From Cymodocea nodosa (taxonomy: Eukaryota; Streptophyta; Magnoliopsida; Alismatales; Cymodoceaceae): a stretch of 64,000 nt of DNA. The translations under genes and the position numbers were made by a program. The notes beneath the pieces are model-generated. The model worked only from the letters and a program-made list of their open reading frames with translations, did not search any database and was not told where the DNA came from. Each line of letters starts with the position of its first letter. Position 1 is the stretch's first letter. The stretch lies in contig CM072336.1 of the NCBI GenBank assembly GCA_036874045.1, positions 18,657,001 through 18,721,000 on the forward strand, in the 5' to 3' direction. Positions 14,785-51,089 of this stretch are shown piece by piece.

Positions 14785-15002
14785 TATTCGATTGCCAAAC
14801 TTTAAGAGAGATAGGTTTGAATTGAAATCTAATTATATTAGTCAATAGCCACACTTTCATGGATTAGAAAGAGAAGATGCCTATTATTTCCTTAAAGAAT
14901 TTAATGAAGTTTGTCAATTGATGAAAATGCCGAACATGAGTATTGATGCTATTAAACTTAGATATATCTCTTTTGCTTTAAAAGACACAGCTAAGAGATG
15001 GT
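14785..15002 (+). pseudogene. gag: G2 gag core, N-terminal part
   Basis: Athila-type gag: the translation shows FELKSNYIS, a stop, then HGLEREDAYYFL, KEFNEVCQLMKMPN, LRYISFALKDTAKRW. It matches G1 at 30398-30618 base by base with few changes. It is cut on the left by C1 and on the right by G1. The reading resumes at 36587 after the ATGGT duplication. Gag core of this type forms the capsid. Confidence 0.9.
14998..15002 (+). repeat. Left target-site duplication of G1 (ATGGT)
   Basis: ATGGT precedes the TGTTTAG LTR start and recurs at 36582-36586 after the 3' LTR end. Joining across it restores the gag reading seen at 30612-30625 in G1. Confidence 0.95.
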
Positions 15003-16943: not shown

Positions 16944-16950
16944 AGTTTTC

Positions 16951-16968
16951 TAGTGTCGTTGCCAGGGA
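16951..16968 (+). promoter_or_regulatory. G1 primer-binding site (Athila type)
   Basis: TAGTGTCGTTGCCAGGGA, seven bases after the LTR end. It differs at three positions from the cleaner G4 copy TAGCGCCGTTGCCGGGGA. The Athila-type site is usually assigned to tRNA-Asp; I could not check the match. Confidence 0.85.
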
Positions 16969-17049
16969 CTTGAGTAGCTAAGCAACTATGAGTGTTGTTC
17001 TATTTTAATAGCTGAGGAGTGTTGTGTGTTATATTTTCTAATTGAGAAT

Positions 17050-18783
17050 ATGGCATATGCTTATGCTCAAAGATTTTTGAAACCTGTAGTTAGCATATGT
17101 GAATTCTACAGATTGGAAGGTCACGACATCTCTGATTGTTTGAAACTAAGACAGTTGCAGATGGTTAGAGCACATGAACAATAGATTAATTATATTCAAT
17201 ATAATAGAGTTAAGTATGAGAATCCTATAGTTTACCTAACTGATGGTCAACTTAGAATGTGTAATATGTTGAGAGACAATGAAGTTTGGGATAGGTATGA
17301 CAGATTGGAGCATAGTTTAGAACAAAACATAGACAAACTAGAACAATATATGTGTCAGCAACAAGAAGTCAACCAATTAAACTATAAGGAAGCATATGCA
17401 GAACCTAAAATTGATATTATATACGAAACTGAAAAAACCAAAATGAAATTTGATCAAAAATTGAATGCAATGAGATTAGATGATTTGGAGAGAAAACTAA
17501 AAGCACTGGACGAATATACAATGAAAATACAAGTTATGCAATAGGACAATGAGAATTATAATGTTATCGATTTTCATAATTTGCAAGATATACAGACAAA
17601 AGAAAATACTAATGCGAGAGAATTTAAAAAATGCACTTTAAAACTAAAAACAATTGAAGATCATAATCACGAAAATGATATACAAGAACATCATGAGAGT
17701 AACGAAAATCTGGAAGATGTATGTATAACACTAAGATCTGAAACTGATATACCACCAAGAATTCAAAATGAAAATAATATGAAGGTGGATAAGAGCAAAA
17801 ATCAAGATGATAATGAGAATGTAATATTCGAAAATATAGAAATCAATGAAGAAAAATCTGAATCTGAAAATGAGACTAAAAATGATCAAACAAATCAAAT
17901 GAAAGAAAAAGAATCTTTTAAATCACAATCATTAGCACCCTATCTTGACAGATTACAACAAACAATACCTGAAAAGCAAGAAAAAATTAGAGAAATTTTT
18001 GAAAGAGTACAAGTTAACATTCCTTTATTAGATCTATTGCAGAAAATGCCACCTTGCGCTAAATTTCTTAAGGATTGGTGTACTAAGAAAAGAGAGCGAA
18101 AAGTTCTTAGGAAAGTCTTTTTAGTTGAGCAAACTAGTTCCCTATTTCTGCCACAAATTCCTAAAAAGTTATCTGATCCCGGAATCCCTGTTATATCATG
18201 CACCATAGGAAATACCATTCTAAAAAGAACCTTAATAGACCTAGGTGCAGGTATAAATGTTATGCCAAGTGATATATTTGCATCCTTAGGATTAGAAGGC
18301 TTAATCCCTACTAGGACTGTTATTCAATTAGCAGATAGAAGTATAAGATACCCTAGAGGAAAAATAGAGGATGTCTTAATTAAAATCAAAAACTTCATAT
18401 ATCCTATTGATATTGTAATTTTGGATTCCCAACAAATTAAGCATAAAAATAGTGATACATCTTTAATTTTGGGAAGACCATTTTTAGCAACATCAAGGGC
18501 TGATATAAATTGTAAAACTGGAATTATGAAGTTAGCATATGGTAATGAGGATACTCAATTGAACCTTTTTAAACCAAAAAAGTTTGAAGAGCTAGAAATA
18601 TCCTTACATACTATAGACTTTTTGGAGGATGAAGGAGATATGCTAGATGATGTGATTCAAGAAGAATTAAATAGGCAACTTAATTCTGAGATTTTAGAAG
18701 AAAGTGAAAGCATAAATGTAGAAGGAGATCAAGAAGAAATTAATGATGTTCAATTAGGTGCTCTAGCTTCTAATGGGCAATAG
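17050..18783 (+). pseudogene. G1 zinc knuckle, acidic linker and protease
   Basis: ATG 17050 opens MAYAYAQRFLKPVV and reaches a knuckle CEFYRLEGHDISDC (17098-17139) in which the second Cys is Tyr; G4 keeps CEFCNLEGHDISDC. A charged, coiled-coil-like linker follows (about 17250-17560), then VCITLRS at about 17731, the usual junction of Athila gag and protease. Next are PYLDRLQQ and LQKMPPCAKFLKDW, then the protease: DLGAGINVMPSDIF with catalytic Asp at 18238, LADRSIRYPRG and ILGRPFLATS. Stops at 17185 and 17542. No capsid-type gag precedes it: only about 80 bases separate primer site and ATG. Confidence 0.88.
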
Positions 18784-20443
18784 TTAGAATTAAAACCTTT
18801 ACCTCCTAATTTAACCTATATATTTTTGGAAGAAAAATGAACATGTCCAATCATTATTGCTTTAGATTTAAACAAGGTTCAAATTGCTAAATTAAAAGAT
18901 GTAGTAAAAACTTATAAAGAAGCAATAGGATGGACTGTGACTGATATAAAAGGGTTAAGTGCAACTTTATGCTATCACCACATATATTTAGAAGAGAATG
19001 CTAAACCAGTTAGAATTCCTAAGAGGAGATTAAATCCAAACCTTAAAGAAGTAGTCAGGAAGGAAAGAGTGAAATGGTTAGATAATGACATAATTTATCC
19101 GATTTCTATTAACTCATGGGTTAGTCCAATCCATGTAGTTCCAAAGAAATCAGGATTAACAGTAATTAGGAATGAAAGTCAGGACTTGATACCTACTAGA
19201 ATTCAATCAGGCTGGAGAGTGTGTATAGACTATAGAAAGCTAAATGCTGTAACTAGGAAAGATCATTTTCCCTTACCTTTTATAGATCAAATGCTAAAGA
19301 AATTAGCAGGGCAAGAATATTTTTGTTTCCTAGATGGGTATTCAGGATATAACCAAGTTCCAGTTGCATTAGAGGATCAAGAGAAAACAACTTTCACCTG
19401 TCCTAATGGAACTTATGCTTTTAAGAGAATGCCATTCGGATAATGCAATGCACCAGCCACCTTTCAAAGGTGCCATTCGGATATTCACTAGAATGACTGA
19501 AGATTTTTTAGAAATATTTATGGATGATTTTATTGTTTATGAAACTTCATATGAAGTGTGTTTAAACAATTTAGACCAAGTATTAAAACGTTGTGTGAAA
19601 AAAAATCTGGTTCTAAATTGGGAAAAATGTCACTTCATGGTTAATCAAGGAATCGTCTTGGGACATGTTGTTTCAAAGAAGGGGTTGGAAGTAGATAAAG
19701 CTAAAATAGAAGTAATTTCTAATCTATCAGAACCTAAATCAGTGAAAGATATTAGATCATTTCTAGGACATGCTGGATTTTATAGAAGATTTATTAAAGA
19801 TTTTAGCAAAATAGCTAGACCTTTAACTAATCTATTAAAAGATGTCCCATTCAACTTTGATAAAAATTGCAAAGAAGCATTTTTCAAGCTTAAAACTAGT
19901 TTAATTTTAACTCCTATAATACAAGCACCTGATTGGAGCCATCCATTTGAATTAATGTGCGATGCATCTGATTTTGCTGTAGGAGCAGTGCTGGGATAAA
20001 AGATAGAAAAATTTCCTAGAGTGATTCATTATGCAAGCAAAACCTTAAATGATGCTCAAGTCAATCACACAACTACTGAAAAAGAGCTGTTAGCCGTTGT
20101 GTTTGCCTTAGAAAAGTTTAGATCATATCTGATTGGAGCTAAAGTGACAGTGTACATAGATCATTTAGCTTTAAAACACCTAATAGCAAAGAAAGAGACT
20201 AAACCTAGATTGATCTGATGGATATTGTTATTACAAGAATTTGATTTAGAAATTAAAGATAAAAAGGGTTTTGAGAATATAGTAGCAGATCATTTATCAA
20301 GATTACGAATAGAAAAATCAAATATTGAAATTAAGGATAATTTTCTTGAAGAACAGCTAATGACCATCAAAACAATGCCTTGGTATGCAAATATAGTAAA
20401 TTACTTAGTTACTAGTTTAACACCTAAAGATTGGAATAGATAG
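18784..20443 (+). pseudogene. pol: G1 reverse transcriptase and RNase H
   Basis: RT motifs: WVSPIHVVPKKSG, WRVCIDYRKLNAVTRKDHFP, CFLDGYSGYNQ with Asp at 19333, and FMDD at 19517-19528. RNase [58 protein letters not shown]. Stops at 18781, 18838, 19441, 19997 and 20216 (CGA to TGA; the last is shared with G4). A segment copied from upstream replaces the usual sequence at 19469-19480 and shifts the frame. Cytoplasmic cDNA synthesis would be its role. Confidence 0.9.
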
Positions 20444-21643
20444 GATAATAAATCGTTCTTTTCAAAAGTAAAATATTACTATTGGGAAGACCCATACTTA
20501 TTTAAGAAATGTCCTGATCTGGTTTTAAGGAGGTGTGTTCCAAAAACTGAATATCAGAGCATATTGTCTTTCTACCATGACCAAGCATGTGGAGGGCATT
20601 TTGGTTTAGGGAAAACTGTTGCCAAAATTTTGCAATGTGGATTTTATTGGCCAACACTATTCAAAGATGCTCATAAATACTGCTTAAGTTGTTTAAAGTG
20701 TTAACAAATAGGATGAATATCAAAGAGGAATATGTTGCCTCTTAATCCTATTGTTGAGGTTGAAATCTTTGATTTGTGGGGAATAGATTTTATGGGTCCA
20801 TTTCCTTTGTCTTAGCAATTTAATTACATATTGTTTGAGGTGGATTATGTATCTAAATGGATAGAAGCTATTCCTACAAGAACTAATGACAACAAAGTGG
20901 TAATACATTTTATAAGAACCAATATAATTGCCAGATTTGGAATACCTAAAGCTATTATCAATGATAGAGGAACTCATTTCTGTAATAGAAGTTTTGAATC
21001 CTTAATGAAGAAATATGGAGTAAACCACAAAATTGCAACATCATATCATCCGCAAACCAGTGGACAAGTAGAAAGTGCAAACAAACAAATTAAGTTAATC
21101 TTAGAAAAAGTAGTAAATCCTACTAGAACAGATTGGGCTAATAAATTGATAGATGCACTTTGGGCTTATAGAACTGCTTATAAGACAAGCTTAGGTATGC
21201 CACCTTTTAGGCTAGTATATGGAAAAAGTTGTCATTTACCAACTGAAATTGAACATAAAGCTTATTGGGCATTAAAAACTCTGAACACTAATTTGAATCA
21301 AGCTGCTGAAAATAGGAAATTACAATTGATTGAATTAGAAGAATTTAGGAATGAAGCTTATTTGAAAACTGTAAGAGAAAAAGAGAAAATGAAGTTCTGG
21401 CATGATAAGAAAATTATTCCAAAAACCATTGAAATAGGACAAGAAGTATATCTTTATATGACTAGACTCCATAACCATCTAGGAAAATTAAGATCTAGAT
21501 GGGCAGGACCTTACATAGTTTGAAATATTTATCCCTATGGAGCTATTGAAATTGAAAACCCTAAAAATCAGAACATATTTAAAGTAAATGGACAAAGACT
21601 TAGACCTATTTTGAAGATACCAAAAGTTCTTTTGGAATTATAG
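20444..21643 (+). pseudogene. pol: G1 integrase
   Basis: Zinc-binding HHCC region with [12 protein letters not shown] and CLSCLKC (about 20575-20700). Catalytic core: Asp 20786 (GIDFMG), Asp 20963 (NDRGTHF) and Glu 21071 (QVESANKQ), the last pair 35 residues apart as expected. The C-terminal part has WAGPYIV and ends near 21643. I see no chromodomain, which fits Athila. Stops at 20441, 20701, 20713, 20815 and 21522, plus a short deletion near 20835. Confidence 0.9.
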
Positions 21644-22380: not shown

Positions 22381-23187
22381 ATGTCGTTGTGTAACTCCAC
22401 GATGAGGAAGATGACACCCAAGTTCTGGGAAGATGCGGTTGACACTTCAGAATTTCTTAAAGAATCAGAGGAATGGCACATGAGGTAGAAAATCAGAAAT
22501 ATGACAAGAGAAAAAGAACTACAGAAGGTAGAATCTGAACTTTCCAACTTCAGAAGAGTTTTAGTAGATTTGGGTATACAAAAACCTCAAATAATAGAAA
22601 CAAGAATAAAGGTTGCTACGGAAATTGCTATAAGCAAGGAGAGAAAAATAAGGTCAAACAACGAAGTTGCCTTAGAATTAATCCAACAAAAATCTTGGCT
22701 CTGGTTCAAAAGATGAATCTGTGGACAAGCTAAATGGGCGATCTGGGAGCAAGAAAGGAAAGAAAGAGAAGAAGAGGCAACTCAAGAATAGGAGGAATCG
22801 ATTGCTGAAAGAACTATTCCTAAGGAACAGCAGCTAGGACCTTTAGTTCCACCACCAAGGCCGATGGAACGAGCAGCAATTTTGGGGCCTTCTACTGAAG
22901 AAGAAAAAAGAGAATTTCAAGAACTGGTTCAAATAGGAAGAGACCAAGGAGAACTAGAAGAATTGGCAGTAGCTATAGCACATCTGGTGTTTGATGCACG
23001 GTGCAAAAAGAGGGTTGTAGAAAAGCTAAAAGCCCAATATAGAATCAAAGTGGAACAGCATCGTGAAGCTACTGCCAAACTTGCTGCAAAAGGAGATGAA
23101 GCTGGTCCTTCGAGACTAGTAATTATAGAAAGAATTAAACAGGAAGAGCTAGTACCTATGGCTCAAAGGCCTGTAGAGCCTATTTTT

Positions 23188-23220
23188 GTGGATTTAATTT
23201 CAGATGAGGAAGAGGAAGAC
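23188..23220 (+). other. SUMO-interaction-like motif 1 in the G1 accessory ORF
   Basis: Encodes VDLISDEEEED: a short hydrophobic strand followed by Ser and acidic residues, the classic SUMO-interaction layout. It follows PVEPIF, which recurs as PVEPNF before motif 2, suggesting an internal duplication. Confidence 0.6.
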
Positions 23221-23328
23221 CAGACACAATTAATTAGAAAAAGGAAAGGAAAAGAGATAGTGTTTGAATATCACGAGGAGATTAAATTTGAAATACAAAT
23301 GTCAATAGAGCCTGTAGAGCCAAATTTT

Positions 23329-23364
23329 GTAAACCTACTATCTGATTCTGAGGAGGAGGAGCAG
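23329..23364 (+). other. SUMO-interaction-like motif 2 in the G1 accessory ORF
   Basis: Encodes VNLLSDSEEEEQ after PVEPNF. Same hydrophobic-Ser-acidic pattern as motif 1, 47 residues downstream, directly before a Gln run. Confidence 0.6.
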
Positions 23365-24506
23365 CAGCAGCAACAAGAGTAAATAGAAGAAGAAAAACAA
23401 GCTGAAACTAGTCTGCAGCCTATACAAGAAGAAGAAACAGAAATTAGGGCAGAAGTTAATTTACCCGTAACTCCATCCCAATCTACCACAAAATCAGAAA
23501 GAACAGTTACAATGCAGATTGATAGTTAGGAGGAAGAAGAAAGAATAGAAAATGAATAAGAAGTTGAACAAGTATATATGGAAAGAAATGACTCTACAGA
23601 TTCCACTGAAGAGCAAGAAACTCTTCAGCAATTTTTGGAAAGTATTCAAGACATAGTGGAGAGTTCTGCCGACTCACCACCATAGACAGAAGCAGAAGCC
23701 AATATTCAGGAATCCACAGAGCATTTTCAACACGTCCAAGTTCAGCATTTGGAAGAGAAAGTTCAAGAACAAACCCCTATAGAGCAACAAATTCATATTC
23801 CTGACCTTGTGGAGGCAACAGTTTTAAATGAAGTATACTTTTGGAGTCAGGAAGCTTATAACAAATACCAAGAGATTAGGGGTTATGATATTATTTATAG
23901 TAGACCAGTAAATTGGGACGAGATGCAAGAAATTAAGGATTTATTTGAGTTCCAAGGTCTACTACAGTTTATTTCTCAACAGAGAGGGCATGTAGTATAT
24001 GATAATTTAGTGCCCTGCTTTTATGCAAATTTGAGAGAAGGAAAAAGAGGATTAATTTCCAACGTGGAGAAAGTTGATGTACAGATAACACTAGAGCTTC
24101 TCCACAATATTTTCGGATTGAGAAATGAACGAATTGAAATTCTGGAAGAAACAACTGCAGTGGAATAGGCTGAATAGGAAATTAAACAGTGCATAGCCAT
24201 CAACTTTGGTGTGCCATTATTGAATAGACTGAAGTACTTAAATGGAAAGGCACACATGGTCGCAGTCATATTGGTAAAAACTGTTTATCAAAGACAATGC
24301 CATGACATTGAACTTAGTCAATTTGTCAAGTGGGCTACTTATGTAGTTGTAAATAGAATTCAAGTTAATTGGTACAAAGTATTTATCTCCAAGCTGAAAG
24401 CAGTAAAGAAGAAATTATTTTATGGAGATTTGATTCCACTGCTAATGGTGGATAGTATTGATTTCACAAAGTGGGCATCCAAAAGGATAAGATCAAGAAC
24501 CATTTA

Positions 24507-26171
24507 TGTTGAGTATTTTGTTTTGATATAAATACTTGTCTGTATTGGATCTGAAATTATACTGTTAAATAACTAGTCATTTCATTGCATAAATTTCTCA
24601 TTTAACTAAACGTTAAGTTAACATGTGTTTTTATAGAAAAACATGATATGTTTTAAAGTTATATCTTCTGTATCATGAATAGTGCACGTTTAGACAACTC
24701 GTTAAGTTAGAGTGTTATTTGTATAAAGATCACGTGAGAACTCGTTGAGTTAAAGGCTTAAAGGTTAAAATAAGTCACGTGAGAACTCATTGAGTTAGTG
24801 AGTAAAAGAAGAGACGAACTCGTTAAGTTAGTGTTGTACACGTGGTGAAATTATAAGTTACGAATGTTATATTGTATCACGTGAGGTGCACATATTTAAC
24901 TCGTTAAGTTAACATAACTAAATGCATTGAGTTGCTATATTGAACACTAAGGCAACGCGTTAGGTTAGCGTTATGAACTTAAGTTGTTATTTTTGCACGT
25001 GGTAAAATTCTTATTATAAAAATATTTTTTTTACTAGTTCGTTGAGTTATCGTAACACAACGGAGATGGTTCGTTGAGTTAGCGTAACATCACAGACTTA
25101 GTTCGTTGAGTTAGCTACAGTACTTGTCACGTGAAATGGCACATGAAGAACTCGTTAAGTTAGAAACGTTAAGTAATATCTACTTATGTTACTCGTTTAG
25201 TTAACATTAAAGTAATGACTACTTATTACACTGATGAAAAATTTTGGACGAGAAAGTTTATTTTGCAAGAAATTTTTCAAAGATCTAAGACTGATGTTAC
25301 AGTACTTGTCACGTGAAATGGCACATGAAGAACTCGTTAAGTTAGAAACGTTAAGTAATATCTACTTATGTTACTCGTTTAGTTAACATTAAAGTAATGA
25401 CTACTTATTACACTGATGAAAAATTTTGGACGAGAAAGTTTATTTTGCAAGAAATTTTTCAAAGATCTAAGACTGATGATTAAAGAAAATTTGAAATATA
25501 AACGTGGGTTAGAATGTGTGTGTTTCGATGAAGGAAAAGTAAAGACGTGAAGAAGTGGAAAACTGGTAGTGTTTAAACGTGGAGGATATGCATGAAATGA
25601 AGATACTGTATAAAAGGCATAGAATTCTCGTTGATCAAACTATCCTTGCACACAAAACGAAAAATCTTTTCAAGGATCATACTATCCCTGCACACCAAAA
25701 GGAAAATCTTTTCAGGGATCAAAAACACCTTTTCGGGAAAGGCTCTCAAGTGGAAGAAAATTCAGTGAAGCAGAAAAAGGAATTATATACGTCATTGAAG
25801 ATTTGAAGTATCAGAAGAAAGCAAATTTAGTGAAGCATAAAAAGACAAGATATTCGTCATTGAAGAATTGCTGAAAAAGAAAGAAGAAGAAGAAGAAATA
25901 TCTCAAACAGGGAGAAATGTTTTAAATTCCGTAAATTAGTTTTCTCTGTTTGTAGTTATGAAATTGTATAGATGAAACATGGTATCGAGATATAATTGCA
26001 TCTACAATTTCTGAGGAGAATTGAATTGTATATTGTAATTGAAACCTTGAATAAAAATGATTTTATGAAAACAATGTCTTGACTTATTTTTGAGTTTTAA
26101 AGTTTCAATTATATTCGAAAATATTGAAAAACACAATTCACCCCCCTCTTGTGTAGCCATACGATTCTACA
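24507..26171 (+). repeat. C2 5' LTR
   Basis: 1665 bp. About 110 bp are missing just after the start (TTTTGAT joined to ATAAATACTTG), with TTGAT at both edges of the lost piece in C3. A 182-bp tandem duplication compensates in length. G-box/GTTAAGTTA array at 24690-25010. Confidence 0.92.
25117..25478 (+). repeat. 182-bp tandem duplication in the C2 LTR
   Basis: Unit 1 (25117-25298) and unit 2 (25299-25478) start ACAGTACTTGTCACGTG and run through TTTTGGACGAGAAAG to AAGACTGATG. I see no difference over the shared length. Other copia LTRs here have a single unit. Confidence 0.9.
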
Positions 26172-26173
26172 AG

Positions 26174-26185
26174 TGGTATCGGAGC
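26174..26185 (+). promoter_or_regulatory. C2 primer-binding site
   Basis: TGGTATCGGAGC, one change from the C1 site, two bases after the LTR end at 26171. Confidence 0.9.
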
Positions 26186-26372
26186 GTTGTTTAGTAATCT
26201 TTGATATAAAATCGATACTAACTTATTTAATATCATTGCTTATTCTGCCTTCCTTGTTTTTAAACAGACATTAATATCTGAGCATACGTTTAACTTTCTT
26301 GATTTAAGGCTCAAGTTGTTTTAAAGTTTTTAGACTGTTTAAAATCAAATAGGTTGAAAAATCTAAGGTAAG

Positions 26373-28062
26373 ATGGCTACTGGAAATGGTAATTTTTCTT
26401 TATATGAAGGCCAAAATCTTAATCGTCCTCCTTTATTTGATGAAATACATTTTGAATATTGGAAATATAGGATGACTATTTTTCTTCAAAGTATAGATCA
26501 TAAGTTGTGGTTCATGATTTTGAAACCTTATACGTCATTATCTACTCCTTATAATACTTGGACAATTATTGGAAAAAAAAATGAAACTCTGAATGCTAAG
26601 GGCTTAAATATTTTATTTTGTGCATTGAGTTATGAACAACTCAGTAAAGTGTCAGCGTATAAATCTGCTTATGAGATGTGGCATGCATTAGAAGTTTCAC
26701 ATGAAGATACTTCTCAAGTTAAAGAGACTAAGATAAACATGTTGATTCATAAGTATGAACTATTTAAGATGCATGAAGATGAAAGTATTTCTGAGATGTT
26801 TTCCAGATTTCTTGATATCATAAACTCTTTAAAATGGTTAGGAAAGAATTTTGAACAGAAGGATTTGGTGAGGAAAATTCTCAGATCCCTAAGTTCTAAA
26901 TGGTCTCAGAAAGTAACATCAATTGAGGAATCACGAGATTTAAATGTTTATACCATGAATGAACTTATAGGAAACTTAACAGCTTATGAAGTTCAATTAA
27001 ATGAATCACTGAGTCACAACAAATCAAAAATGAAGAAAGAAATAGCCTTCGAAATTAATTCAGATTCTGATATATCTACTGATTCTGACGAGGATTTGAT
27101 TTTGCTGACTAGGAAATTCAAGAAAGCATGGAAAGATAGGAACAGAAATGACAAACCCTCAACGTCAAAATCACTGAATGACAAGACTTCTTCATCCAAA
27201 AAGTACGTATGTTACAACTATAAGAAACCTAGACATCTTTCTCTAGATTGTCCTTTGAGGAAAAATGAAAAGCAAAGTAGGACAAATCAGAAGAAGATGG
27301 CTCAGAAAACTGAGAAAAAGTTTTACAAGAAAAAGGCTTTGAAGGTCACTTGGGATGACACATCTGAAGAGTCTGAATCTGAGGAATCAACTTTAAAATC
27401 CTCACATTCAGAAGGAGAACAAGAGTTAGAAGACGTTGCACATGTGGGCTTCATGGTAGATGAGTCTGAGGTAATATCTGATCCTGAAAGTCATTCAGAT
27501 TTTAACTTTGATGAATTATTATGTGTTTATCATGCATTATTACAAAAACTTAAAGTTTGTAAACTTGATAATAAGAATATTAGAAACTCTTTATCCATTG
27601 TGGAAAAAGAAAATTGTTTCCTGTCTACTACTTTAGAAAAGTTTAAATGTGATAATGAAAATCATGCTAGAGATTCGCATAAATTTAGATTTAATGAATG
27701 TGTCTTGCATGAACAAATACAGAATACAAATGCTGAAAAGTTAAAGATAGAATCTGAAAATGAAATCTTGAGAACAAATATAAATGAACTTGAATTAGAG
27801 ATAAATAAATTAAAACTGAGAGAGCTAAATTTAAATTCTACCATTGAGAAATGGAAATTAAGTCAAACTAAGTTAGACAAACAAACTAGTACCCCTAAGG
27901 TGTCATATAAATTTGGCTTAGGATTTGATTATCATGAATATCCTGAATCTCAAGCCAATAAAGGATTTGTTAGTTGCAGTTCAAGTAAATCTAAGACTAA
28001 AATTCCTTTTATCATGAAACAAGGTAATAAATATGTAGAAGTAAGTACTCCAAGGGATGAAT
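26373..28062 (+). CDS. gag: C2 gag, open but truncated at 3' end
   Basis: The best preserved copia gag of the window: one frame from ATG 26373 (MATGNGNFSLYEG) running 586 codons to a stop at 28133, of which the last 24 or so are read-through into LTR sequence after the deletion join at 28062-28065. Order: N-terminal retrotransposon region; knuckle CYNYKKPRHLSLDC (about 27209-27250) with its second Cys changed to Tyr; Lys-rich and acidic Ser-rich stretches; long coiled-coil-like region (about 27560-27880). The damaged knuckle and missing pol make it non-autonomous. Whether it is expressed cannot be seen. Confidence 0.88.
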
Positions 28063-29043
28063 TCCTTAAGTTGTTATTTTTGCACGTGGTAAATTCTTAT
28101 TATAAAAACATTTGTTTCTTATTGGTTCGTTGAGTTAGCGTAACACCACAGACTTAGTTCGTTGAGTTAGCTACAATACTTGTCACGTGAAATGGCACAT
28201 GAGGAAACGTTAAGTTAGAAACGTTAAGTTAATATCTACTTATGTTACTCGTTTAGTTAAATTAAAGTAACGACTACTTATTACACTGATGAAAAATTTT
28301 GGATGAGAAAGTTTATTTTGCAGGAAATTTTTTAGAGATCCAAAACTGATGATTAAAGAAAATTTGAAATATAAACGTGGGTCAGAACGTGTGTTTCAAT
28401 GAAGGAAAAAGCAAAGACGTGAAGAAGTGGAAAACTAGTAGTGATTAAATGTGGAGGATATGCATGAAATGAAGATACAGTATAAAAGGCATAGAATTCT
28501 CATTGATCAAACTATCCTTGCACACAAAACGAAAAATCTTTTCAAGGATCATACTATCACTACACACCAAAAGGAAAGTCTTTTCAGGGATCAAAAACAC
28601 CTCTTCGGGAAAAGCTCTTAGGTGGAAGAAAATTCAGTGAAGCAGAAAAATGTATTATATACGTTACTGAAGATTTGAAGTATCAGAAGAAAGCAAATTC
28701 AGTGAAGCATAAAAAGACAAGATATTCGTCATTGAAGAATTGCTGAAAAAGAAAGAAGAAGAAGAAGAAAGATCTCAAACAGGGAGAAATGTTTTAAATT
28801 CGGTAAATTAGTTTTCTCTGTTTGTAGTTATGAAATTGTATAGATGAAACATGGTATCGAGATATAATTGCATCTACAATTTTTGAGGAAAATTGAATTG
28901 TATATTGTAATTGAAACCTTGAATAAAAATGATTTTATGAAAACAATGTCTTGACTTATTTTTGAGTTTTAAAGTTTCAATTATATTCGAAAATATTGAA
29001 AAACACAATTTACCCTCCTCTTGTGTAGCCATACGATCCTACA
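28063..29043 (+). repeat. C2 3' LTR, 5'-truncated
   Basis: Begins in the middle of the LTR at CTTAAGTTGTTATTTTTGCAC and continues normally to CCTACA. Roughly the first 500 bp of the LTR, including its G-box array, were lost in the gag-LTR deletion. Confidence 0.92.
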
Positions 29044-29193: not shown

Positions 29194-30175
29194 ATTGTAT
29201 TGTTCATCTACTTGTGTACATTTGTATGAAAAATATCTGAGTTATTGTAATGTATACTATTCATATTAATGAATGTGTGTTTTTCAGATGTATTTTTCAT
29301 TCGTGTTTGAGAATGATGAAATGGATGAACTATATTGAATATTATATAATGGTTTGAACAAAATGCAAGATTGTTTAAAAGATATGCAAATTTGCTAAAT
29401 GACAAGATTAAAGGCACAATAATTAATTAATGTCTAAAAATATCTGCATGCTGCAAAGAAAAATTTAAATTCTGCATAACATGAAATGAACTACAAGTTA
29501 AATATTTATATAATGTTCAGATTTAAATGAGTTTTAATTGGAACACTGCAATAATGTCATGTATTTAACTTTATTTAAGTTGAAAAGAATGTAGGAGAGA
29601 AATTTATATATAGAAGTTAATACGAAGAGTAAGTTTAGAAAATCTGCTAAGTGTTAACTCAACGAAGTAAGTCTGTTGAGTTAACCTTAACTCTACGAGG
29701 TCAATAATATAATATAAGGTCACTCCGTTGAGTTATCTGTAACTCAACGAAGTTAGTCTATGGAGTTAGCAGTAGTAGCCGAAGCTATTCTGTTGAGTTA
29801 TCTGTAACTCAACGAGGTTAGTTCGTGGATTAAGCTAAACGGTTATTCTTTTAGCCATGAACGAAACTTCATGGGTTTAGCGGTTACTGAAATTTGAAAT
29901 TAGAAGTGGCACACGTACCATAAAAGTTGGAACCATACTGCACGTTACAAGTCACATTCTTGCAACGAGATTCATTTGCTTTAGGGATGTGCATTATAAA
30001 TATAGAACAGAATGTTGTTTACAAGTTACCAACATTTGAGAAAAAAAAATTCATTGGGGAACTGGAAGGAGAAGCAGTTGATTCAACTTCATCCGTCAAC
30101 AACTATTTACTGAATATAAAGCTTCAAATTGGTATGTAATTAATCTTCTGCTATCTTATTTTATGTTAAAAGTTT
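29194..30175 (+). other. G1 spacer between accessory ORF and gag core
   Basis: AT-rich to 29640, nothing recognised. Bases 29641-29850 carry four GTTGAGTTA/TAACTCAAC inverted pairs, for example CGTTGAGTTATCTGTAACTC near 29728 and TGTTGAGTTATCTGTAACTC near 29792. After them come a small open frame (29927-30139) and a splice-donor-like GGTATGTAATTAAT at 30131. Confidence 0.75.
29927..30139 (+). other. Small open frame upstream of the G1 gag core
   Basis: About 70 codons starting MEPYCTLQVTFLQRD. I do not recognise it. It ends at a GGTATGTAATTAAT site that could be a splice donor, so it might be an exon or leader rather than a gene. No second copy is visible to test it. Confidence 0.25.
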
Positions 30176-31524
30176 ATGAGCACATGGATTCGTTCTCTTA
30201 GCACTAAACGATTAGTAAGAACACCTACACAGGATTATTCAACATAGAGACGTATTGAAAAATTTTCTGAATTTGACTTTAACGAAATCCTTAGGGGTGT
30301 AGATAACCTTTCTTTAAAAGAGAACGAAGATATGGCTGCTCTAGTAGAGAAACCATTAGGGGAAATTCTGTATCCTGAATTAGTTGATGAACCTTCATGT
30401 ATTCGATTACCAAACTTTCAAGGAGATAGGTTTGAATTGAAATCTAATTATATTAGTCAATTGCCAAATTTTCATTGATTAAAAAGAGATGATGCCTATT
30501 ATTTCCTTAGAGAATTTAACGAAGTTTGTTAAATGATGAAAATGCCGAACATGAGTATAGATGCTATTAAACTTAGATATATCCCTTTTGCTTTAAAAGA
30601 CACAGCTAAGAGATGGTAATATACTCTATCGCCTGATTCAATTTCTACATGGACTGAATTTTGCTCTGTTTTTCTAGAAAATATTATCCAACACATCAAA
30701 CGATTAAAAAGAAAAAGGAAATATTAATGTGTAGCCAAAAACAAGGAGAATCATTCTGGAAATATTTTGAAAGATTTAAAGATTTACTGACTCAATGTCC
30801 ACATCATGCAATGAGTAAAGTACAATTGATAGGTATAATTTATGAAGGCATAGATGTTTCAACGAAATCTTTATTAGAATCTACTTGTCAGAATGGATTT
30901 TTAAAATTGTGTAGTGAAGAAGCATGGGCATACTTAGAAAACTTTTTAAAAAGAACTGCACAGTGAGAGAACTCAACTGAAGTTATTGCAGATAAAAGAA
31001 TATTGCCAAGGGGAATGCATGAAATAGATTCAAGCACTATGCTTGAAGTTAAATTAACTGAATTAATAAAGAAAATAGAAGAGTTATCATTAAATCAGAA
31101 ACTAGTAGAAAAAAGTGCAAACGTTAATGACTTAGATATTATTTATGTTAGAAACCAGAAAGATAACTTTGGAAATTCGTATAAGCCTAATTGGAGAAAT
31201 CACTCGAATTTATCTTAGAGAAACAACAATTTCCAAGTAGTAGAAAATATAAATGACAAGAATATAAATTATGAAGCATTAATTGAACAAGGATCTAGAA
31301 TAGAGAAGTTAGAAAAGATAATTCAATAATTAAACAATCGTCTACATTTTGTATTTGGAAATGCTGCAATTCAAAATCAAAATATAAATAGAAATATACC
31401 CCCTAGACAGAAAGAATCAATAGAAGTTAGACCTACTGGAGGATTGCCAATGCAAGCATTACCTAACCCTATTAACAAAACTGTTAATGAAATTGATACC
31501 TCCTCTGGGAGGGGAACCGAATGA
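30176..31524 (+). pseudogene. gag: G1 gag core (Athila type), placed 3' of pol
   Basis: ATG 30176 (MSTWIRSLSTKRL). Athila gag wording follows: EPSCIRLPNFQGDRFELK, DDAYYFLREFNEVC, LRYIPFALKDTAKRW, then the second half ILMCSQKQGESFWKYFERFK and LLTQCPHHAM. The C-terminus has YKPNWRNHSNLS and GGLPMQALPNPINK, normally found just before the TLRSG junction with protease. No zinc knuckle is present here; it sits in the 5' frame after the primer site. Stops at 30245, 30476, 30527 and 30616. A minus-one shift at about 30677 is shared with G2. It would supply capsid. Confidence 0.87.
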
Positions 31525-31606
31525 AACATCATAACTGAAGTAACTATGTATAATATAGTAAGTAGAAAAAAATATAATAAAAAAAATGTAAGTTTACTTA
31601 TAGTTA

Positions 31607-31690
31607 ATAGTATCGTAGAGTTATTACTTAATTCAACGAACTTAGTCTGTTGAGTTATGACCTAACTCCACGAGGATGTGTAGTAGCTAT
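31607..31690 (+). repeat. GTTGAGTTA palindrome cluster before the G1 F-box gene
   Basis: GAGTTATTACTTAATTCAACG is followed by CTGTTGAGTTATGACCTAAC, giving two inverted pairs directly upstream of the F-box ATG at 31714. The matching G2 copy is at 37577-37648. Confidence 0.75.
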
Positions 31691-31713
31691 GTTAATTTTG
31701 TCTCTGTTAATTT

Positions 31714-32874
31714 TTGTTTATGTCATCAGAATCACAACAGACGGAATTGATGAAATTACCGCTAGATGCACTAAGGGAAGTACTGAGTAACTTGTCAGCT
31801 AAAGATCTGTGCAGATTGTGTTGTGTATTAAAGGATATTAAAGACTATGTTAGAGAAAAATATTTTCATGGACTACAAGCTACAAAAATGACTAAGATTA
31901 GAGATGGATTTTTATGGAAGTCATTTAATCGTAGTTCAATTAGCTATGAATATCTGAATATGGAAGAAATTGCTGGAATTCCACCTAATACATTAGAAGG
32001 AATAGATCATATTATGGGGATGGATGAAGGATTAATTATATACAGAACCAAACCCAGGTATGCAATTCTATTACCTAATATTTTAATTAGAAATCCTCTC
32101 ACAAGAGAAGAATGGAATATAGGAAGGCCTAATAGATATGAAGTACCAACTGAAAATTGTGGATTAGCTTTAATATTTTTTGATAAAAATTCGATCATTC
32201 CTGAAAAATTATATTATTGGAGACCTATTGGAAATTGGGATGAAGATTTATGCTTAAGTGTATAATTTTCTGAATAGATCTTGGACTAAAAACAATATGA
32301 TATATCTAGGACAGAAATCATTAATTAACAGCATACATGTCATACTTGATGGATATATATATCTAGTCATAGATATATCAGTTGCATTTAGATCTGATTT
32401 ATACATAGTAAGCATAGATAGTTATGATGATTTTATAGAAATATTACCTATACCAAGTGATATAGCTAAACCACCATCAACAGAATATGATAAATTCAAT
32501 TAGAAATGTGGTATAATGAATATGATGATCCTACTTTATGTTTGATAAGATGGTGGGATGAATTGAAGAAATTTCAAATATGGATTATAAAAGACCTAAA
32601 TGAATGGAAGTGGGAAGAGGAATATATTGAAATAGATGTAGAAATAGAAACAGCTACACTATATTGGAACAGAAGAGGATCTCTTTCTACATTTCCTTTC
32701 ATTAATGGAAATACACTTATATTTAGTATTGATAACATACTACAAGTTTACAAATTAAAAAGGAAAATAGACTGCATTGAAATAGAATTGATAGTAAGAA
32801 GAATTATGCCAAAAAAGTTTGCTTGGACTAACACGTTTATTCCATTTGTTACTACTTTTCAGTCATGTTCTTAA
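31714..32874 (+). pseudogene. G1-borne F-box / FBA-like gene
   Basis: ATG at 31714 (or in-frame 31720). The F-box lies near residues 14-50: LPLDALREVLSNLSAKDLCR then LCCVLKDIKDYV. An FBA/beta-propeller-like body follows, with ILIRNPLTREEWNIGRPNR, KLYYWRPIGNWDED, SDLYIVSIDSYDD and FQIWIIKDLNEWKWEEEY. F-box proteins recruit targets to SCF (Skp1-cullin) ubiquitin ligases; the body usually binds the target. A frameshift at about 32265 and a stop at 32501-32503 break it; the last frame ends at 32874. It lies between gag core and polypurine tract of a TSD-bounded element and has a second copy in G2, so it is a retrotransposon passenger. Its expression and target are unknown. Confidence 0.85.
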
Positions 32875-33479
32875 AGTATGATTCTGTGTTTTTAATGTTA
32901 TGTGTAGTCTGCATTTATTTTTAGAAAAAAAAAAAAACAAAATATCAATCCAGTTTGTTGGTATCTGTTCTGGGAAACCAATTGGCTTGCTTGTGAGCCA
33001 CCAAAGGCATAGGAGCCAAGGTTCCACACAAGCCACTGAGTAACAAGTTATGTTTTGTTGTTATATATTCTACTTTTAATTGTGAATGAAAAGTTTTTCA
33101 GATTCAAAAATTGAAAGATATTGAAGGAGATACAAAAGAACAAGGTATGTAATTAATTACTTATCCTAAATTTACATTTAAACTCAATTCGTGGAGTTAT
33201 TCATTAACTCAATGAATTAAGTTCATTGAGTTAGGTGTTAAGTTAACGAAACAAGATTCATGCCTGCTGCAATTACTGTATTTACTAACAAATCTTTTAC
33301 ATTGAGGATAATGCAAAATGTAGGTATGGGGGGGAGGTAATTAAAGTAACAGCCATGTAATTTTGTTAGTTAGAAGAATTAAAATAGTACTGCAAAAGTT
33401 CTATAGAAGTTGAAGTTGCTATAACTATTTGATAATTGAAACTGCAAAAAATTTTAAAGAACTATAACTGCTGAAATGT

Positions 33480-34455
33480 TATATTTATAATCTTATATAA
33501 GATGCTACCAATTTTACTACTCATACAAATCTAGATATAGTATCTTATGTTTTTGCTGAAATTTATGAGTTTAACAATTTCACGATTTTAAAAAGAAATC
33601 AGAATGTTTAACTGAAACTCAGTAAATTATTTGAAATCATGAAAGAGCTGAAATGTTGATTTTTAGATTAAAGGAAATACATATGATCAATGATACATTT
33701 AATTTGATTGATTAAACTTGTAGAATGATTTATGTGTAGATCTTATTAAATTACAGAAAAAGTATGAGCTTATTGATATGGATTCATATTTTCAGTAAAT
33801 AATAAGAGCAAGAATATACAAGATTTGTGTTTAATTGCATCTGTATTAGTGAAATACGTTCATATACTATGTTGAAAAGAAAAAAAGAGGAAAAAAAGAG
33901 AAAATTTTTGAGAGTTTATTAACTTGTTTGATCATGAGCCTTTTGTACTTGAGCAGATAAGTATGTAAGGATTGTTGACCTGAAAAAGGACTCTTTAAAT
34001 CTGGCAACCTAAGATCTTGATCAGATCTGGGATTGTTGACTGAAAGCTCGATACATAGGTACACTAGAAAGCTTTTGTATGATTCAAGCTTGTCAAATTA
34101 ACTTTTAAAAGTACAAATATGCATATACTGTTTTGAAAAGATACAAGTGTTTTGTGAAATACAGATATCTTTTGAATCGAGTATATTTTCTGTTATCTAA
34201 AATTGCTAAAGTATGAATCTAGATTAGACTTTTGAAGTTGTTTATTTGAGATACAATTCTTTATTCTACTTATCTTAATCGTATTGAATTGGATTGTGTT
34301 TTGATTCATATGTACTTGAAATTTATTCTAGAAATCATATTGGAAAATTCAGGATGACAGATGCTGAAAAGAAAAAAATGATAATATAATTAACACCTAT
34401 GTGATGCTGATTTATTTTGTATGAAATTTACATATATTCTAAATATATTTGCAGG
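33480..34455 (+). repeat. Copy of the copia spacer module inside gypsy G1
   Basis: Colinear with C1 7080-8095 and, reversed, with C3 43650-44690. The strongest block is at about 33920-34090. Both families share TTGATTGATTAAACTTGTAG, GTATGTAAGGATTGTTG and CTGAAAAAGGACTCTTTAAA. Its 3' edge reads ATATATTTGCAG, a plausible splice acceptor. Confidence 0.88.
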
Positions 34456-34623
34456 TTGAAGAGGAGAAAACAAAGTTAAAATAGATTACTGAAGCATACA
34501 GAATATATATATAGTAATCTAATTTATTATTCTGAAGAAGAGCAAAATGAAGAATTAAATCTAGCACTTTAGAAAGACCAATTAGTTAAATCTTAGTTTG
34601 CTAACGGACTAGCAACATTTAAG

Positions 34624-34634
34624 TATGGGGGAAG
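34624..34634 (+). promoter_or_regulatory. G1 polypurine tract
   Basis: ATGGGGGAAG immediately before the 3' LTR start at 34635; the probable plus-strand primer. Confidence 0.85.
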
Positions 34635-36581
34635 TGTTTAGAATGAAAATGTGCATAATATTAACGGTTAAATGATGGTTAATTGCATAATATTTAGCTT
34701 ATCATATGAAAATTAAGTCATTATGTTATAATTGCACTGTTATATGCTTTAATGAAAGAATCTGTATAATTTCAAGGAATTAGCGTTAATTTAATACATT
34801 TCTAAACTATTGGTAAGTTGCTGGTTTTTAATTCTTTAGTATCAAAATTTTCTGTTATTTTGGAGAGTTATGTTTAATGTACCAGACAATTATGTTTTAA
34901 ATGCTAAAAGAATATTTAGGTGAACAGTAACAACTCGTTGAGTTATATGTTTAAAGGTATAAAAAGATCAAGTGAGAACTCGTTGAGTTAGCGAGTAAAA
35001 ACCTTAAGTTATATATCTGAACTCGTTAAGTTAGAATTATGCACGTGTTGAATTTAAATACTTTATTATGTCACGTGAGATGTACATGTTTAACTCGTTA
35101 AGTTAGCATAACTATACGCGTTGAGTTACATGAATACACACTAACGTAACGCGTTAGGTTAGCAGCTTATTTCTTTATTGCACGTGTTTTATAGTTAAAT
35201 CAACGAAGTAAGTCCGTTGAGCTATCTGTAACTCCATGGACCATTTATTTTCTAATATGCCACTATAGCGGTTACAAAAACAGGACATTTGAAGGAAAAC
35301 CACAATTGCACGTATCACGTAGGAATTCACTCGTGGAAGGGAGAAGAAATCACCATCGTTGATATGAATGAAGGAAATCCAACCGATCCTCTAAGCAGAA
35401 GCAGTTACCACTAAAGAAATATAAAAGAATAGGAGAAAAGAAGAAGAGGTGTGGCTAGTGTGTGTAGAGGAGGACAAACCAAGCTATCTACAGGCAGCAT
35501 GGGAAGTTCCCTGAAGTACCACACCAACCACCACAACCACAACCATCACACCATAATCACCAACCATCGGAGGTCTGTGAGGATACTTTCTTGATGTCGG
35601 GTCGATTCCGAGCCAAATACAATGCTTGACAACTACTATGAGGAGTGATCGCGTCGCGGGAAAGGAAGCCATTTTCACCAAGCACCAACTCATATCTCAG
35701 GAGAACGTAAAGCTTCTAGCCTTGGTTTCGGGTTGATGCCAGTATGCTGAAAAGGAGATCATCTTGCAATTCTGGACTCACGATTCTATAAGGAGAGGAG
35801 GTAGAATTCTAAGTGATTATGTTTTCAGTGGTGTAATCACATCGCATGTAGTGACAGAAGTTTTTACTATCGATAGAGATTACTTTCACATTTCACCTTT
35901 CACCCATTTTCATGATCATATCAAAACAAAAATACCAAAAACAACTTATCTATGTTTATAGTTAGTATTTGAGTGTTGTATTGTTTGTTTTGTATCGTGA
36001 TTAATTTTATCATTGTTAGTGTTTTGAATGTTTCATGTTTGTTTAATTTAGAAAATAGAAAATAGTTTTACAATTTACTGAAATTGAATCGTTCCTGATA
36101 CTTAAAGATTTTAACGGTTACTATTTGAAATATCTGAATGTTAGTGTTGTTGAATGATAAATCTAATATTAAATAGCATTATAGAGCTTAATTGATGTTA
36201 TTTACAATTTGTGGAACCGCTCAATGGTTGGTCGAATTCCTTTGTAAATAGAAGTATTAAACTGGATAGATAGCTTCATTGAGTTACTTCAATTCCACGA
36301 GGTTAGTCCGTTGAGTTAGCTATAACTCAACGGAGTGCTTACTGAATATATAAATTTCATTATTAAAAATGGAACAATACATAGTTCTAGCTCAATTCTC
36401 TATGGGATCGACCTGCACTTGCACACAAATACAATGTACACTGTGCACTTGCAGTTAAAATACAAATTGGAATTAATATCTAATTTGTGTGAAAGATTGT
36501 TTGTTGACTTCTAAAAAGGAATTGTTGATAAGCATAAAGATAAATTAACTAAGTTACAAATGGAAGTTAACAAGCCAAACA
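34635..36581 (+). repeat. G1 3' LTR
   Basis: 1947 bp, same order as the 5' LTR, with the copia-like G-box/GTTAAGTTA segment at about 34915-35210. It ends CCAAACA at 36581, followed by the target duplication ATGGT (36582-36586). Small minus-strand ORFs within it are unsupported. Confidence 0.94.
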
Positions 36582-36586
36582 ATGGT

Positions 36587-37493
36587 TATATACTCTATTG
36601 CCTGATTCAATTTCTGCATAGACTAAATTTTGCTCTATTTTTTTGGAAAATATTATCCAACACATCAAACGATTAAAAAGAAAAAAGAAATATTAATGTG
36701 TAGCCACAAATAAGGAGAATCATTCTGGAAATATTTTGAAACATTTAAAGATTTACTGACTCAATGTTCGCATCATGCAATGAGTAAAGCACAATTAATA
36801 GGTATAATTTATGAAGGCATAGATGTTTCAACAAAATCTTTATTAGAATCTACATGTCAAAATGGATTTTTAAAACTATGTAGTGAAGAAGCATGGGCAT
36901 ACTTAGAAAACTTTGCAAAAAGAACTGCATAGTGGGAAAACTCAACTGAAGCTATTACAGATAAAAGAATATTGCCAAGGAGAATGTATGAAATAGATTC
37001 AAGCACTATGCTTGAAGTTAAATTAACTAAGTTAACAAAGAAAATAGAAGAGTTATCATTAAATCAAAAACTAGCAGAAAAGAATGCAAATATTAATGAC
37101 TTAGATATTATTTATGCTAGAAACCAGAAAGATAACTTTGGAAATTCTTATAACCCTAATTAGAGAAATCATCTGAACCTATCTTGGAGAAATAACAATT
37201 TCCAAGGAGGAGAAAATATAAATGGAAAAAATATAAGTTATGAAGCATTAATTAAACAAGGATCAAGAATAGAGAAGTTAGAAAAGATAATTCAACAATT
37301 AAACAATCGTCTAGATCTTGTAATTGGAAATGCTGCCATTCAGAATCATAATATAAATAGAAATATACACCCAAGACAAAAGGAATCAAAAGAAGTTAGA
37401 CCTATTAGAGGATTACCAATGCAAGTAGTGTCTAACCTTGTCAATAGAACTATTAATGAAATTGATATCTCCTTTGGGAGGGAAATTGAATGA
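36587..37493 (+). pseudogene. gag: G2 gag core, C-terminal part
   Basis: Resumes the gag broken at 15002. It shows SWNILK-type shifted reading, then LEST, LYEGIDVSTKS, the MYEIDSSTMLEVKLT helix region, NSYNPN, and GLPMQVVSNLVN before a stop at 37491. It shares with G1 the minus-one shift in GGAAAATATTATCC (about 36643). Additional stops at 36619, 36697, 36715 and 37159. No zinc knuckle. Confidence 0.85.
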
Positions 37494-37708
37494 AGTAGTA
37501 CAACTAAAACAATTATTTATAATATAGTAAATAGAAAAATATAAAAAGAAAAAAATGTGTAAGTTTAATTATAGTTAGTAATATCGTAGAGTTATTACTT
37601 AACTCAACGAACTTAGTCTATTGAGTTATAACCTAACTCCATGAGGGTAAGTAAGTAGCTATGTTAATTTTATCTCTACTAGATTTTGTTTTTACAGAAT
37701 CACAATAG
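37494..37708 (+). other. G2 gag to F-box spacer
   Basis: AT-rich, with the same GTTGAGTTA palindrome cluster as G1 (about 37577-37648): GAGTTATTACTTAACTCAACG then CTATTGAGTTATAACCTAAC. Conservation of this cluster in both copies supports it as part of the element. Confidence 0.7.
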
Positions 37709-38811
37709 ATGAACTTGATGAAATTACCATTGGATGCACTAAGGAAGTACCAAGTAACCTACCAACTAAAGATCTATGCAGATTGTGTTGTGTGTCAAAG
37801 GAAATTAAAGAATGTGTTAAAGGAAAATATTTTCATGGACTACAAGCTGCAAAAACTACTAATATTAGAGATGGATTTTTATGGAAGTCATTTAATCGTA
37901 GTTCAATCAGCTATGAATATCTGAATATGGAAGAAACTATTGGAATTCCACCCAATACATTAGAAGGAATAGATCATATTACAGGGATAGATGGAGGATT
38001 AATTATTTAAAGAACCAGACCAAGGTATGCAATTCTGTTACCTGATATTTTGATTAGAAATCCTGTCACTAGAGAAGAATGGAATATAGGAAGGCCTAAT
38101 AGATTTGAAGTACCAACTAAAAATTGTGGGTCAGCATTAATCTTTTCTGATAAAAATTCGACCATTCCTGAAAAATTGTATTATTGGAGACCAACTGGAA
38201 ATTGGGATGAAGATTTATATTTAAGTGTGTATAATTTTCTAAATAGATCTTGGACTGAAAATACTAGGATATATCTGAGACATAAAACATTAATTAACAA
38301 CATACATGTCATACTTGATGGATATATATATCTAGTCACAGATATATCAGTTGCATTTAGATCTGATTTATACATAGTAAGCATAGACAGTTATGATGAT
38401 GACTTTATAGAAATATTGCCTATACCGAGTGATATAGCTGAACCACCACCTATGGAACATGATGAAATTCAATTAGGAATGTGGTATAATGAATATGATG
38501 ATCCTACTTTATGTCTGATAAGATGGTAGGATGAACTGATGAAATTTCAAATATGGATTATGAAAGACCTAAATGAATGGAAATGGGAAGAAAAATATAT
38601 TGAAATATCTATAGAAATAGAAAGAACTACATTATCTTGGAACAGAAAAGGATCCCTTTTTGCATTTCAATTTATTAATGGTAACACAATTATATTTAGT
38701 ATTGATAACATATTGTAAGTTTACAAGTTAAAAAAGAGAGCAAACTATATTAAAACAGAATTAATAGCAAGGAGAATTATGCCTAAAAAGTTTGCTTGGA
38801 CTGGCACGTTT
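37709..38811 (+). pseudogene. G2-borne F-box / FBA-like pseudogene, cut by C3
   Basis: Second copy of the G1 F-box gene, in the same place after gag core. ATG 37709 (MNLMKLPLDALRK) is thrown out of frame by a one-base loss in the F-box; the reading continues from 37783 (MCCVSKEIKECVKGKYFHGL). Stops at about 38008, 38527 and 38716. The central part (38050-38529) is open and lacks the G1 frameshift at 32265, so that shift is private to G1. The C-terminus is truncated at 38811 by the minus-strand copia LTR. Many amino-acid differences from G1 suggest decay rather than constraint. Confidence 0.85.
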
Positions 38812-50183: not shown

Positions 50184-51089
50184 ACTTCTATTTTTACTTA
50201 GTTAATTTATCTTTATGCCTATTCCTTTTTAAAAGTAAACAAACAACCTTTCACACAAATTAGATATTAATTCCAATTTGTATTTGATATTAATTCATTA
50301 ATTCTATTGTATTAGTGTGCAAGTACAGGTCGATCCCACAGGGAATTGCTTAAGAATTGCGAACTGTTCTGATTTTAACAATCAAATTTATATATTCATT
50401 TTGCGAACTGTAACTCAACGGACTAAGTTCGTTGAGTTATGGCTAACTCAACGGACTAACCTTGTGAACTTAAGTTAACTCCACGAGCCTACCTTTCCTA
50501 TTTAATACTGCTATTTATAGAGGAAATCGGCCAACCATTGGGCGGTTCCACAGATTGTAAATAACATCAATTAAGCTCTTTAATGTTAGTAAACATTGGA
50601 TTTATCATTAGGCAATACTAACATTCAGATAATTCAAACAATAACCATTAAAATTTTTAAGTCTTTTGAACGAACCAATTTCAGTAAACTATAAAACTAA
50701 AACAAACATAAAACAATCAAAACACTAACAAAGATAACATTAATCACTATACAAAACAAACAATACAACACTCAAATACAAAATTTAAACATAGATAAGT
50801 TGTTTTTGGTATTTTTGTTTTGATATGAGCATAGAAATGGGCGAAAGGTGAAATGTAAAGTAATCTTAGTCAACAGTAAATACTTCCATCACTACATGCG
50901 ACGCGATTACACCACTGAAAACTTAATCACTTACAATTCTACCTCCTCTCCCTATAGAATCGCGAATCTAGAATTGCAAGATGATGTCCTCTTCATCATA
51001 CAGGTATCAACCCGAAACCAAGGCTAGAAGCTTTATGATCTCCTGAGATATGAGTCGACGCTTGGTGAAAATGTCTTCCCTTCCCGTGA
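50184..51089 (-). repeat. G3 5' LTR, 5'-truncated
   Basis: Only the 3' part of the gypsy LTR remains, matching 11650-12570 of the solo LTR. It stops at about 51089 within the GGGAAGGGAAGAC region and is joined there to accessory-ORF sequence of another gypsy copy. Confidence 0.88.

Follow-up and report, generated by a model that had tools for sequence, protein, structure and literature searches.

A high-copy Gypsy retrotransposon family of Cymodocea nodosa carries an accessory F-box gene whose message is made by splicing

The 64,000-nucleotide stretch of Cymodocea nodosa DNA analyzed here (the window; C2:18657001-18721000 of a 374.6 Mb assembly in 28 contigs) holds a Gypsy long terminal repeat (LTR) retrotransposon that belongs to an Athila-like family in which an accessory F-box gene occupies the 3′ end. 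We find that lineages of this element retain an F-box protein, the message for which arises by splicing, and we consider it likely that the family uses the gene to its own benefit, probably through a SKP1-cullin-F-box (SCF) ubiquitin ligase. The label Athila is provisional and is based on resemblance in the primer binding site (PBS) and proteins. An earlier note on this DNA had described a family seen in two F-box copies, which we call G1 and G2; the family is real, with about 3,000 copies in the genome, and both copies in the window are broken.

A 32-mer of the F-box gene has 2,947 genomic occurrences (at most three mismatches) and a 32-mer of the capsid gene has 3,358, with none for the reversed control of either. 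When the genome was searched with the F-box protein, 150 of 5365 candidate places were scored, all at E≤1.2e-102. Twenty loci, the best F-box protein matches, picked mostly for long frames, were fetched; element sequence flanks the F-box gene on at least one side in all 20, which were chosen by their F-box. This result and the capsid and F-box counts speak against the possibility, raised in the earlier note, that other members lack the gene.

The order in the family is LTR, PBS, nucleocapsid-protease, reverse transcriptase, RNase H, integrase, an open reading frame (ORF) that we call X, capsid, F-box, LTR. Only the window element and the joined loci L034 and L027 (LTRs 92.9% alike) show the full order together with both LTRs. 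Pol lies directly upstream in the same orientation in five of the six F-box copies for which an upstream piece was fetched, the sixth having a copia element there; in L011, both pol and X are upstream. In all 11 loci compared (of the 20 fetched), X lies ahead of the capsid unit. The usual Gypsy order, with the gag capsid ahead of pol, was not found: the capsid sits after X, and in five of five cases (three places in the window, L034 and the element after L011) a nucleocapsid ORF follows the LTR without a capsid core. Gag is thus split, with the capsid gene behind pol and the nucleocapsid kept in front (17051 versus 30176-31524).

The displaced capsid, absent in 5/5 cases from its usual place ahead of the nucleocapsid, and the unrelated sequence upstream of some F-box copies (4/20; L031) could suggest that capsid and F-box make up a non-autonomous element of their own, nested within the Gypsy element. 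We regard this as very unlikely, since the order pol-X-capsid-F-box recurs and 19 of the 20 loci have no direct repeat pair around the F-box gene within ~5 kb; the one such pair, in L012, consists of the 3′ part of the F-box gene present twice and is no LTR. With no flanking LTR pair in the 20 loci, this candidate was rejected.

Two observations concern individual members of the family. Between 8.75 and 9.71 Mb of C2 there are 13 F-box matches, 12 of which share a 405-aa frame, at a spacing of ~60 kb or more; they look like a segmental tandem array. In L073, PBS-like sequence lies close ahead of the F-box spacer, and this copy is apparently a deletion derivative without pol, X and capsid.

The 3′ half of the window element contains the following features, all on the + strand:

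29990..30006, +, TATA box, putative internal promoter (15 of the 16 loci aligned read TATAAAT)
30132..31729, +, intron of the F-box message, containing the capsid ORF (conserved GT donor and AG acceptor; 23 exon-exon junction copies)
30176..31524, +, gag capsid ORF, broken in the window copy (PF03732 core at 30661-30963, E=1.3e-10)
31630..31657, +, 28-bp palindromic motif ahead of the F-box gene
31730..32874, +, G1 F-box exon with two frameshifts (PF00646; the usual ATG at 31741 is altered, the next ATG is at 31750)
33145..34454, +, putative intron in the 3′ untranslated region (3′UTR; donor AACAAG/GTATGT, acceptor TTTGCAG, both ends conserved across loci)

The F-box message is made by splicing of element RNA. 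A conserved donor, CTTCAGACTG/GTATGT, lies upstream of the capsid ORF; its GT is present in 14 of 15 aligned loci, and five of the 20 loci could not be aligned there. Upstream of the F-box ORF come a pyrimidine-rich stretch, AG, then AATCACAACAG and the usual ATG. The capsid ORF is located between this donor and acceptor. Of 24 unspliced copies in which the acceptor is readable (from a set of 27 rows that also held one spliced copy and two on the wrong strand), 19 have AG. Among 20 F-box copies drawn in the order listed, 15 keep the intron and have a readable acceptor (12 AG, 3 AA), one (L065) is spliced and four have other sequence there; six further copies are unspliced, with AG in four and AA in two. 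The TATA region ranks among the most conserved non-coding stretches.

The exon-exon junction itself has 23 gapless matches in the genome (at most three mismatches), spread over 13 contigs, and its control has none. We read it directly in the fetched DNA of two copies, L011 and L065. L011 is without exactly the interval from donor to acceptor; since it keeps pol and X upstream while the intron is gone, its RNA started ahead of the internal TATA box. Because the capsid ORF lies in the intron and 23 genomic copies of the junction exist, we conclude that splicing of the F-box message is real. The intronless copies could alternatively be a subfamily that never had the capsid gene and owes nothing to splicing; one junction pair is identical over 32 bases and four share the exon end ACTA, so some may descend from one event. 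That the whole set arose in this way is very unlikely, as the breakpoints coincide exactly with the GT and the AG, which are accompanied by a donor consensus and a pyrimidine tract, the L011 and L065 sequences differ and the junction copies are on 13 different contigs. A second conserved donor/acceptor pair, at 33145-34454, is a probable 3′UTR intron after the F-box gene.

The product is an F-box protein. PF00646 is found above its curated cut-off in G1 (E=7.6e-07, 31711-32262) and in G2 (E=3e-06, 37651-38007), so the earlier note's identification of the domain holds and its reservation that a profile search might show otherwise falls away. Intact copies encode ~377 aa with the F-box at the N terminus, and all seven intact or near-intact copies scanned exceed the cut-off (best E 4e-11; L016 scores 40.2 bits against a cut-off of 20.5). 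The FBA-like label given earlier was not borne out: FBA_1 reaches at best 14.7 bits (cut-off 21.1; E 0.028) and is listed for two of the seven copies. Frames of 383-416 aa that no internal stop interrupts are present in at least eight of the 150 scored genomic matches.

The copies compared show purifying selection. When the divergent copy L050/L051 (~81% nucleotide identity) was set against three intact copies, the ratio of nonsynonymous to synonymous divergence (dN/dS) was 0.375, 0.309 and 0.312, with bootstrap upper limits of 0.53, 0.44 and 0.45 and an excess of third-position differences (p 0.0068, 0.0040 and 0.0011). The adjoining LTR piece served as a phase control; its differences are flat and without phase. 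Alternative codings of the comparison give 0.27-0.40, and intact or near-intact pairs of the main group, a set biased by choice, give 0.29-0.38. The earlier note had held that purifying selection among copies would support use of the gene, and the ratios (0.31-0.375) lie in that direction. In a frequency-class test on 37 of 40 copies (three were dropped for strand or coverage), the ratio of nonsynonymous to synonymous variants (N/S) in the F-box ORF was 2.71 for singletons, then 2.04, then 1.42 for variants shared by at least three copies (p=0.008). For the capsid ORF in 19 copies, N/S over the same classes was 2.00, 2.73 and 1.00 (p=0.045).

Several observations weigh against a maintained and used F-box protein. 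The three dN/dS comparisons are not independent, as they share one divergent copy that is itself broken. In the frequency-class test, one of six non-coding control frames gave p=0.0002 and another p=0.054, and in the 14 copies chosen by DNA alone, shared versus singleton variants gave p=0.12; because a control frame is also skewed and the DNA-chosen copies give this value, we treat the test as only supportive. Six of the 37 scored copies are free of stops and frameshifts, as is one of the 14 chosen by DNA. The acceptor is AA instead of AG in 10 of 45 unspliced copies, some of which may recur in the count. No relative of the protein was found in a 5.8-billion-protein database, either among 1137 candidates with a single-sequence query (E≤1e-3) or among 5983 candidates with the alignment A2 as query (E≤10), or in the PDB, and the second half of the protein, its putative substrate part, has no assigned domain.

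The searches of the large protein database depend on shared 5-residue words, so distant parents could escape them. Of 7966 candidates scored there with a control query of reverse transcriptase and integrase, 7964 matched, and for most of the 120 listed the identity was 57-66%. Plant proteins are therefore present in the database; those of the 120 listed relatives that have a named organism are from plants. The host parent gene with introns that the earlier note had envisaged was not found in a genome search with PF00646 that scored 150 of 4219 candidates, several of them known element copies. One clear host F-box gene was read, L049, which looks HAWAIIAN SKIRT-like; it is 21% alike to the element F-box (E 0.35).

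With both window copies and 31 of the 37 scored copies broken, the gene could be a mere passenger, taken from the host and multiplied along with the element but not used by it, and LTR elements that capture single genes, F-box genes included, are in print (PMC5142383, PMC7264820). This is improbable given dN/dS of 0.31-0.375 (0.27-0.40 under other codings), the conservation of splice sites and TATA box and the open frames of 383-416 aa in at least eight of the 150 scored matches.

One control frame touches a different part of the element. In the LTR of L016 (7977-9450), shared variants in the third control frame are strongly skewed to synonymous (p=0.0002), which may reflect chance, mutation bias or an unrecognized LTR ORF.

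The window element itself is bounded and nested as follows, again with all features on the + strand:

14785..15002, +, older copy, left piece (capsid), 92.7% identical to 30400-30617
14998..15002, +, left target-site duplication (TSD) ATGGT, with its copy at 36582-36586
15003..16943, +, 5′ LTR of G1's element with TG...CA ends, 94.2% identical to 34635-36581
16944..16970, +, PBS, in the sequence immediately after the LTR
17051..18783, +, first ORF region with nucleocapsid zinc knuckle and aspartic protease, no capsid core ahead, read from sequence
18841..21553, +, reverse transcriptase, RNase H and integrase (PF00078, PF17919 and PF00665, above cut-off and in that order)
22792..24505, +, region X ORF, weakly similar to PF20167 in a profile search (below cut-off)
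24506..29040, +, copia insertion within G1's element, foreign to the family (other copies join 24505 to 29041 directly)
34623..34634, +, polypurine tract, in the sequence adjoining the 3′ LTR
34635..36581, +, 3′ LTR, from self-comparison of the window
36582..38811, +, older copy, right piece, with the capsid remainder and the G2 F-box (37709-38811); 88.6% identical to 30613-32838 and ending at a copia LTR at 38811

The element has the features of a Gypsy LTR retrotransposon: an LTR pair, found by self-comparison, with TG..CA ends, a 5-bp TSD at both LTR edges, a PBS and a polypurine tract. The PBS is probably tRNA-Asp-like, a type that it presumably shares with Athila-type elements. The pol order is also that of Gypsy, with PF00078 and PF17919 at 18841-19996 followed by PF00665 at 20816-21520, all above cut-off, and at 47000-45861 RNase H precedes integrase within a single ORF. 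In the first ORF region, one cysteine of the zinc knuckle is altered (the knuckle is intact at 50008-49430) and the protease profile is below cut-off (21.2 versus 24.3 bits). The gag core that the earlier note saw ahead of G1 is confirmed by its PF03732 match, which reaches E=7.2e-19 in the L017 capsid. Measured against L016, G1 has two frameshifts, and G2 has three stops and two frameshifts.

The same coordinates show how G1 and G2 are related. The sequence at 14785-15002 resumes at 36582-38811 exactly where the G1 copy runs through 30613-30617, so that the unoccupied site can be read in G1, and ATGGT is duplicated; G2 is therefore part of the target site of G1's element and no segmental twin. 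The G1-carrying element thus inserted into an older copy of its own family that holds G2. The LTRs and exact TSD reported earlier for G1 stand, and one segmental duplication as the source of both copies, the earlier note's other reservation, is ruled out by the nested insertion and the TSD.

The palindromic spacer that had been noticed before both F-box copies is indeed common to them (31630-31657 and 37601-37628). The 28-bp motif, AACTCAACGnnnTnnnynyGTTGAGTTA, has 33 sites in the window, or 60 matches counting both strands against 0.01 expected, with examples at 29656-29683, 31630-31657, 50412-50439 and 62634-62661. It lies 108-127 bp upstream of the F-box gene in 17 of the 20 loci and also occurs in LTR-looking repeats of both copia and Gypsy families and ahead of ORFs. 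It could be a shared promoter operator. Separately, part of the Gypsy X ORF (23686-24165, + strand) is homologous to an extra ORF of the copia family (41115-41945, − strand; 34% identity over 103 residues, E=2e-19). The two retrotransposon classes thus have an accessory protein in common, in addition to the palindrome.

How might the element use its F-box gene? The 3′ half would act as a second expression unit, in which unspliced RNA would encode capsid and removal of the intron at 30132-31729 would place the F-box ORF directly behind the leader. Retroviruses express env by comparable splicing. The ~377-aa protein, which most likely binds SKP1, would then act as an SCF substrate receptor to the benefit of the element. 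We infer the SCF role from the F-box domain; production of the protein, SKP1 binding and substrate are likewise inferred. The likeliest class of target may be a host restriction factor, with silencing components as a tentative first choice and the element's own Gag or Pol second. A fuller proposal, in which the receptor degrades host silencing proteins, the splice switch alternates capsid with anti-silencing activity and the palindrome couples the LTR to the internal promoter, is possible yet doubtful. It is also conceivable, if somewhat less likely still, that the F-box protein limits copy number by tagging the element's own Gag or integrase for degradation. A single splice choice yields either capsid or F-box protein, so the ratio of the two could be tuned; against such self-limitation, the family is very abundant.

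For the F-box domain, the closest precedent in the passages available is a flax copia LTR retrotransposon that carries an F-box gene, described as gene capture (PMC5142383). There, a single copia example is described, and family-wide fixation, splicing or selection is not mentioned in the passage, whereas the present family is Gypsy, numbers thousands of copies, is spliced and is constrained. F-box genes are also among the LTR- or Gypsy-linked genes of Thlaspi arvense (PMC8764390) and of a fungus (PMC4905642); both are reports of single genes, with no family that has a fixed F-box in the passages available. For a fixed accessory domain, the closest precedent is in Phalaenopsis, where, as here, a large Gypsy family has an extra ORF with a fixed host-type domain, in that case an AlkB-type m6A RNA demethylase, not an F-box, proposed to counter host surveillance (PMC9289625). 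The same paper reports 15 extra domains in 121 angiosperm genomes, including PMD, G-patch, AIR1, DUF1409, YgdH, L26, B3, ArgoL2 and 2-ODD, and the term F-box is absent from its main text.

Other systems resemble the family in single respects, so far as the parts of the sources available describe them. Athila-type Gypsy elements also have sense ORFs between pol and the 3′ LTR, but theirs is env-like (PMC7264820); here, an F-box gene stands in its stead and the capsid gene lies behind integrase. In EVD/COPIA93, splicing likewise gives a short subgenomic message for one protein (shGAG), but that RNA makes Gag (PMC8892269), whereas in the present family the intron holds the capsid ORF and it is the accessory gene that the spliced RNA carries. 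The F-box-like P0 silencing suppressors of poleroviruses, parasite-encoded and linked to SKP1 and ARGONAUTE1 (PMC6593998), may be a precedent by analogy. In the openly available literature, searched largely at the depth of titles and abstracts, we found no high-copy LTR family with an F-box gene, and so none that has fixed and splices one.

Plant LTR elements with extra genes and single F-box captures were known; a high-copy family with a selected, spliced F-box gene would go beyond them. For a Gypsy element, it is also unusual in its own right that the capsid gene follows pol and lies within another gene's intron. The F-box has a clear biochemical partner in SKP1, the thousands of copies lend power to evolutionary analysis, and the message is proved by the natural intronless copies. 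The family thereby points to a specific and testable way in which a transposon could use the host ubiquitin system.

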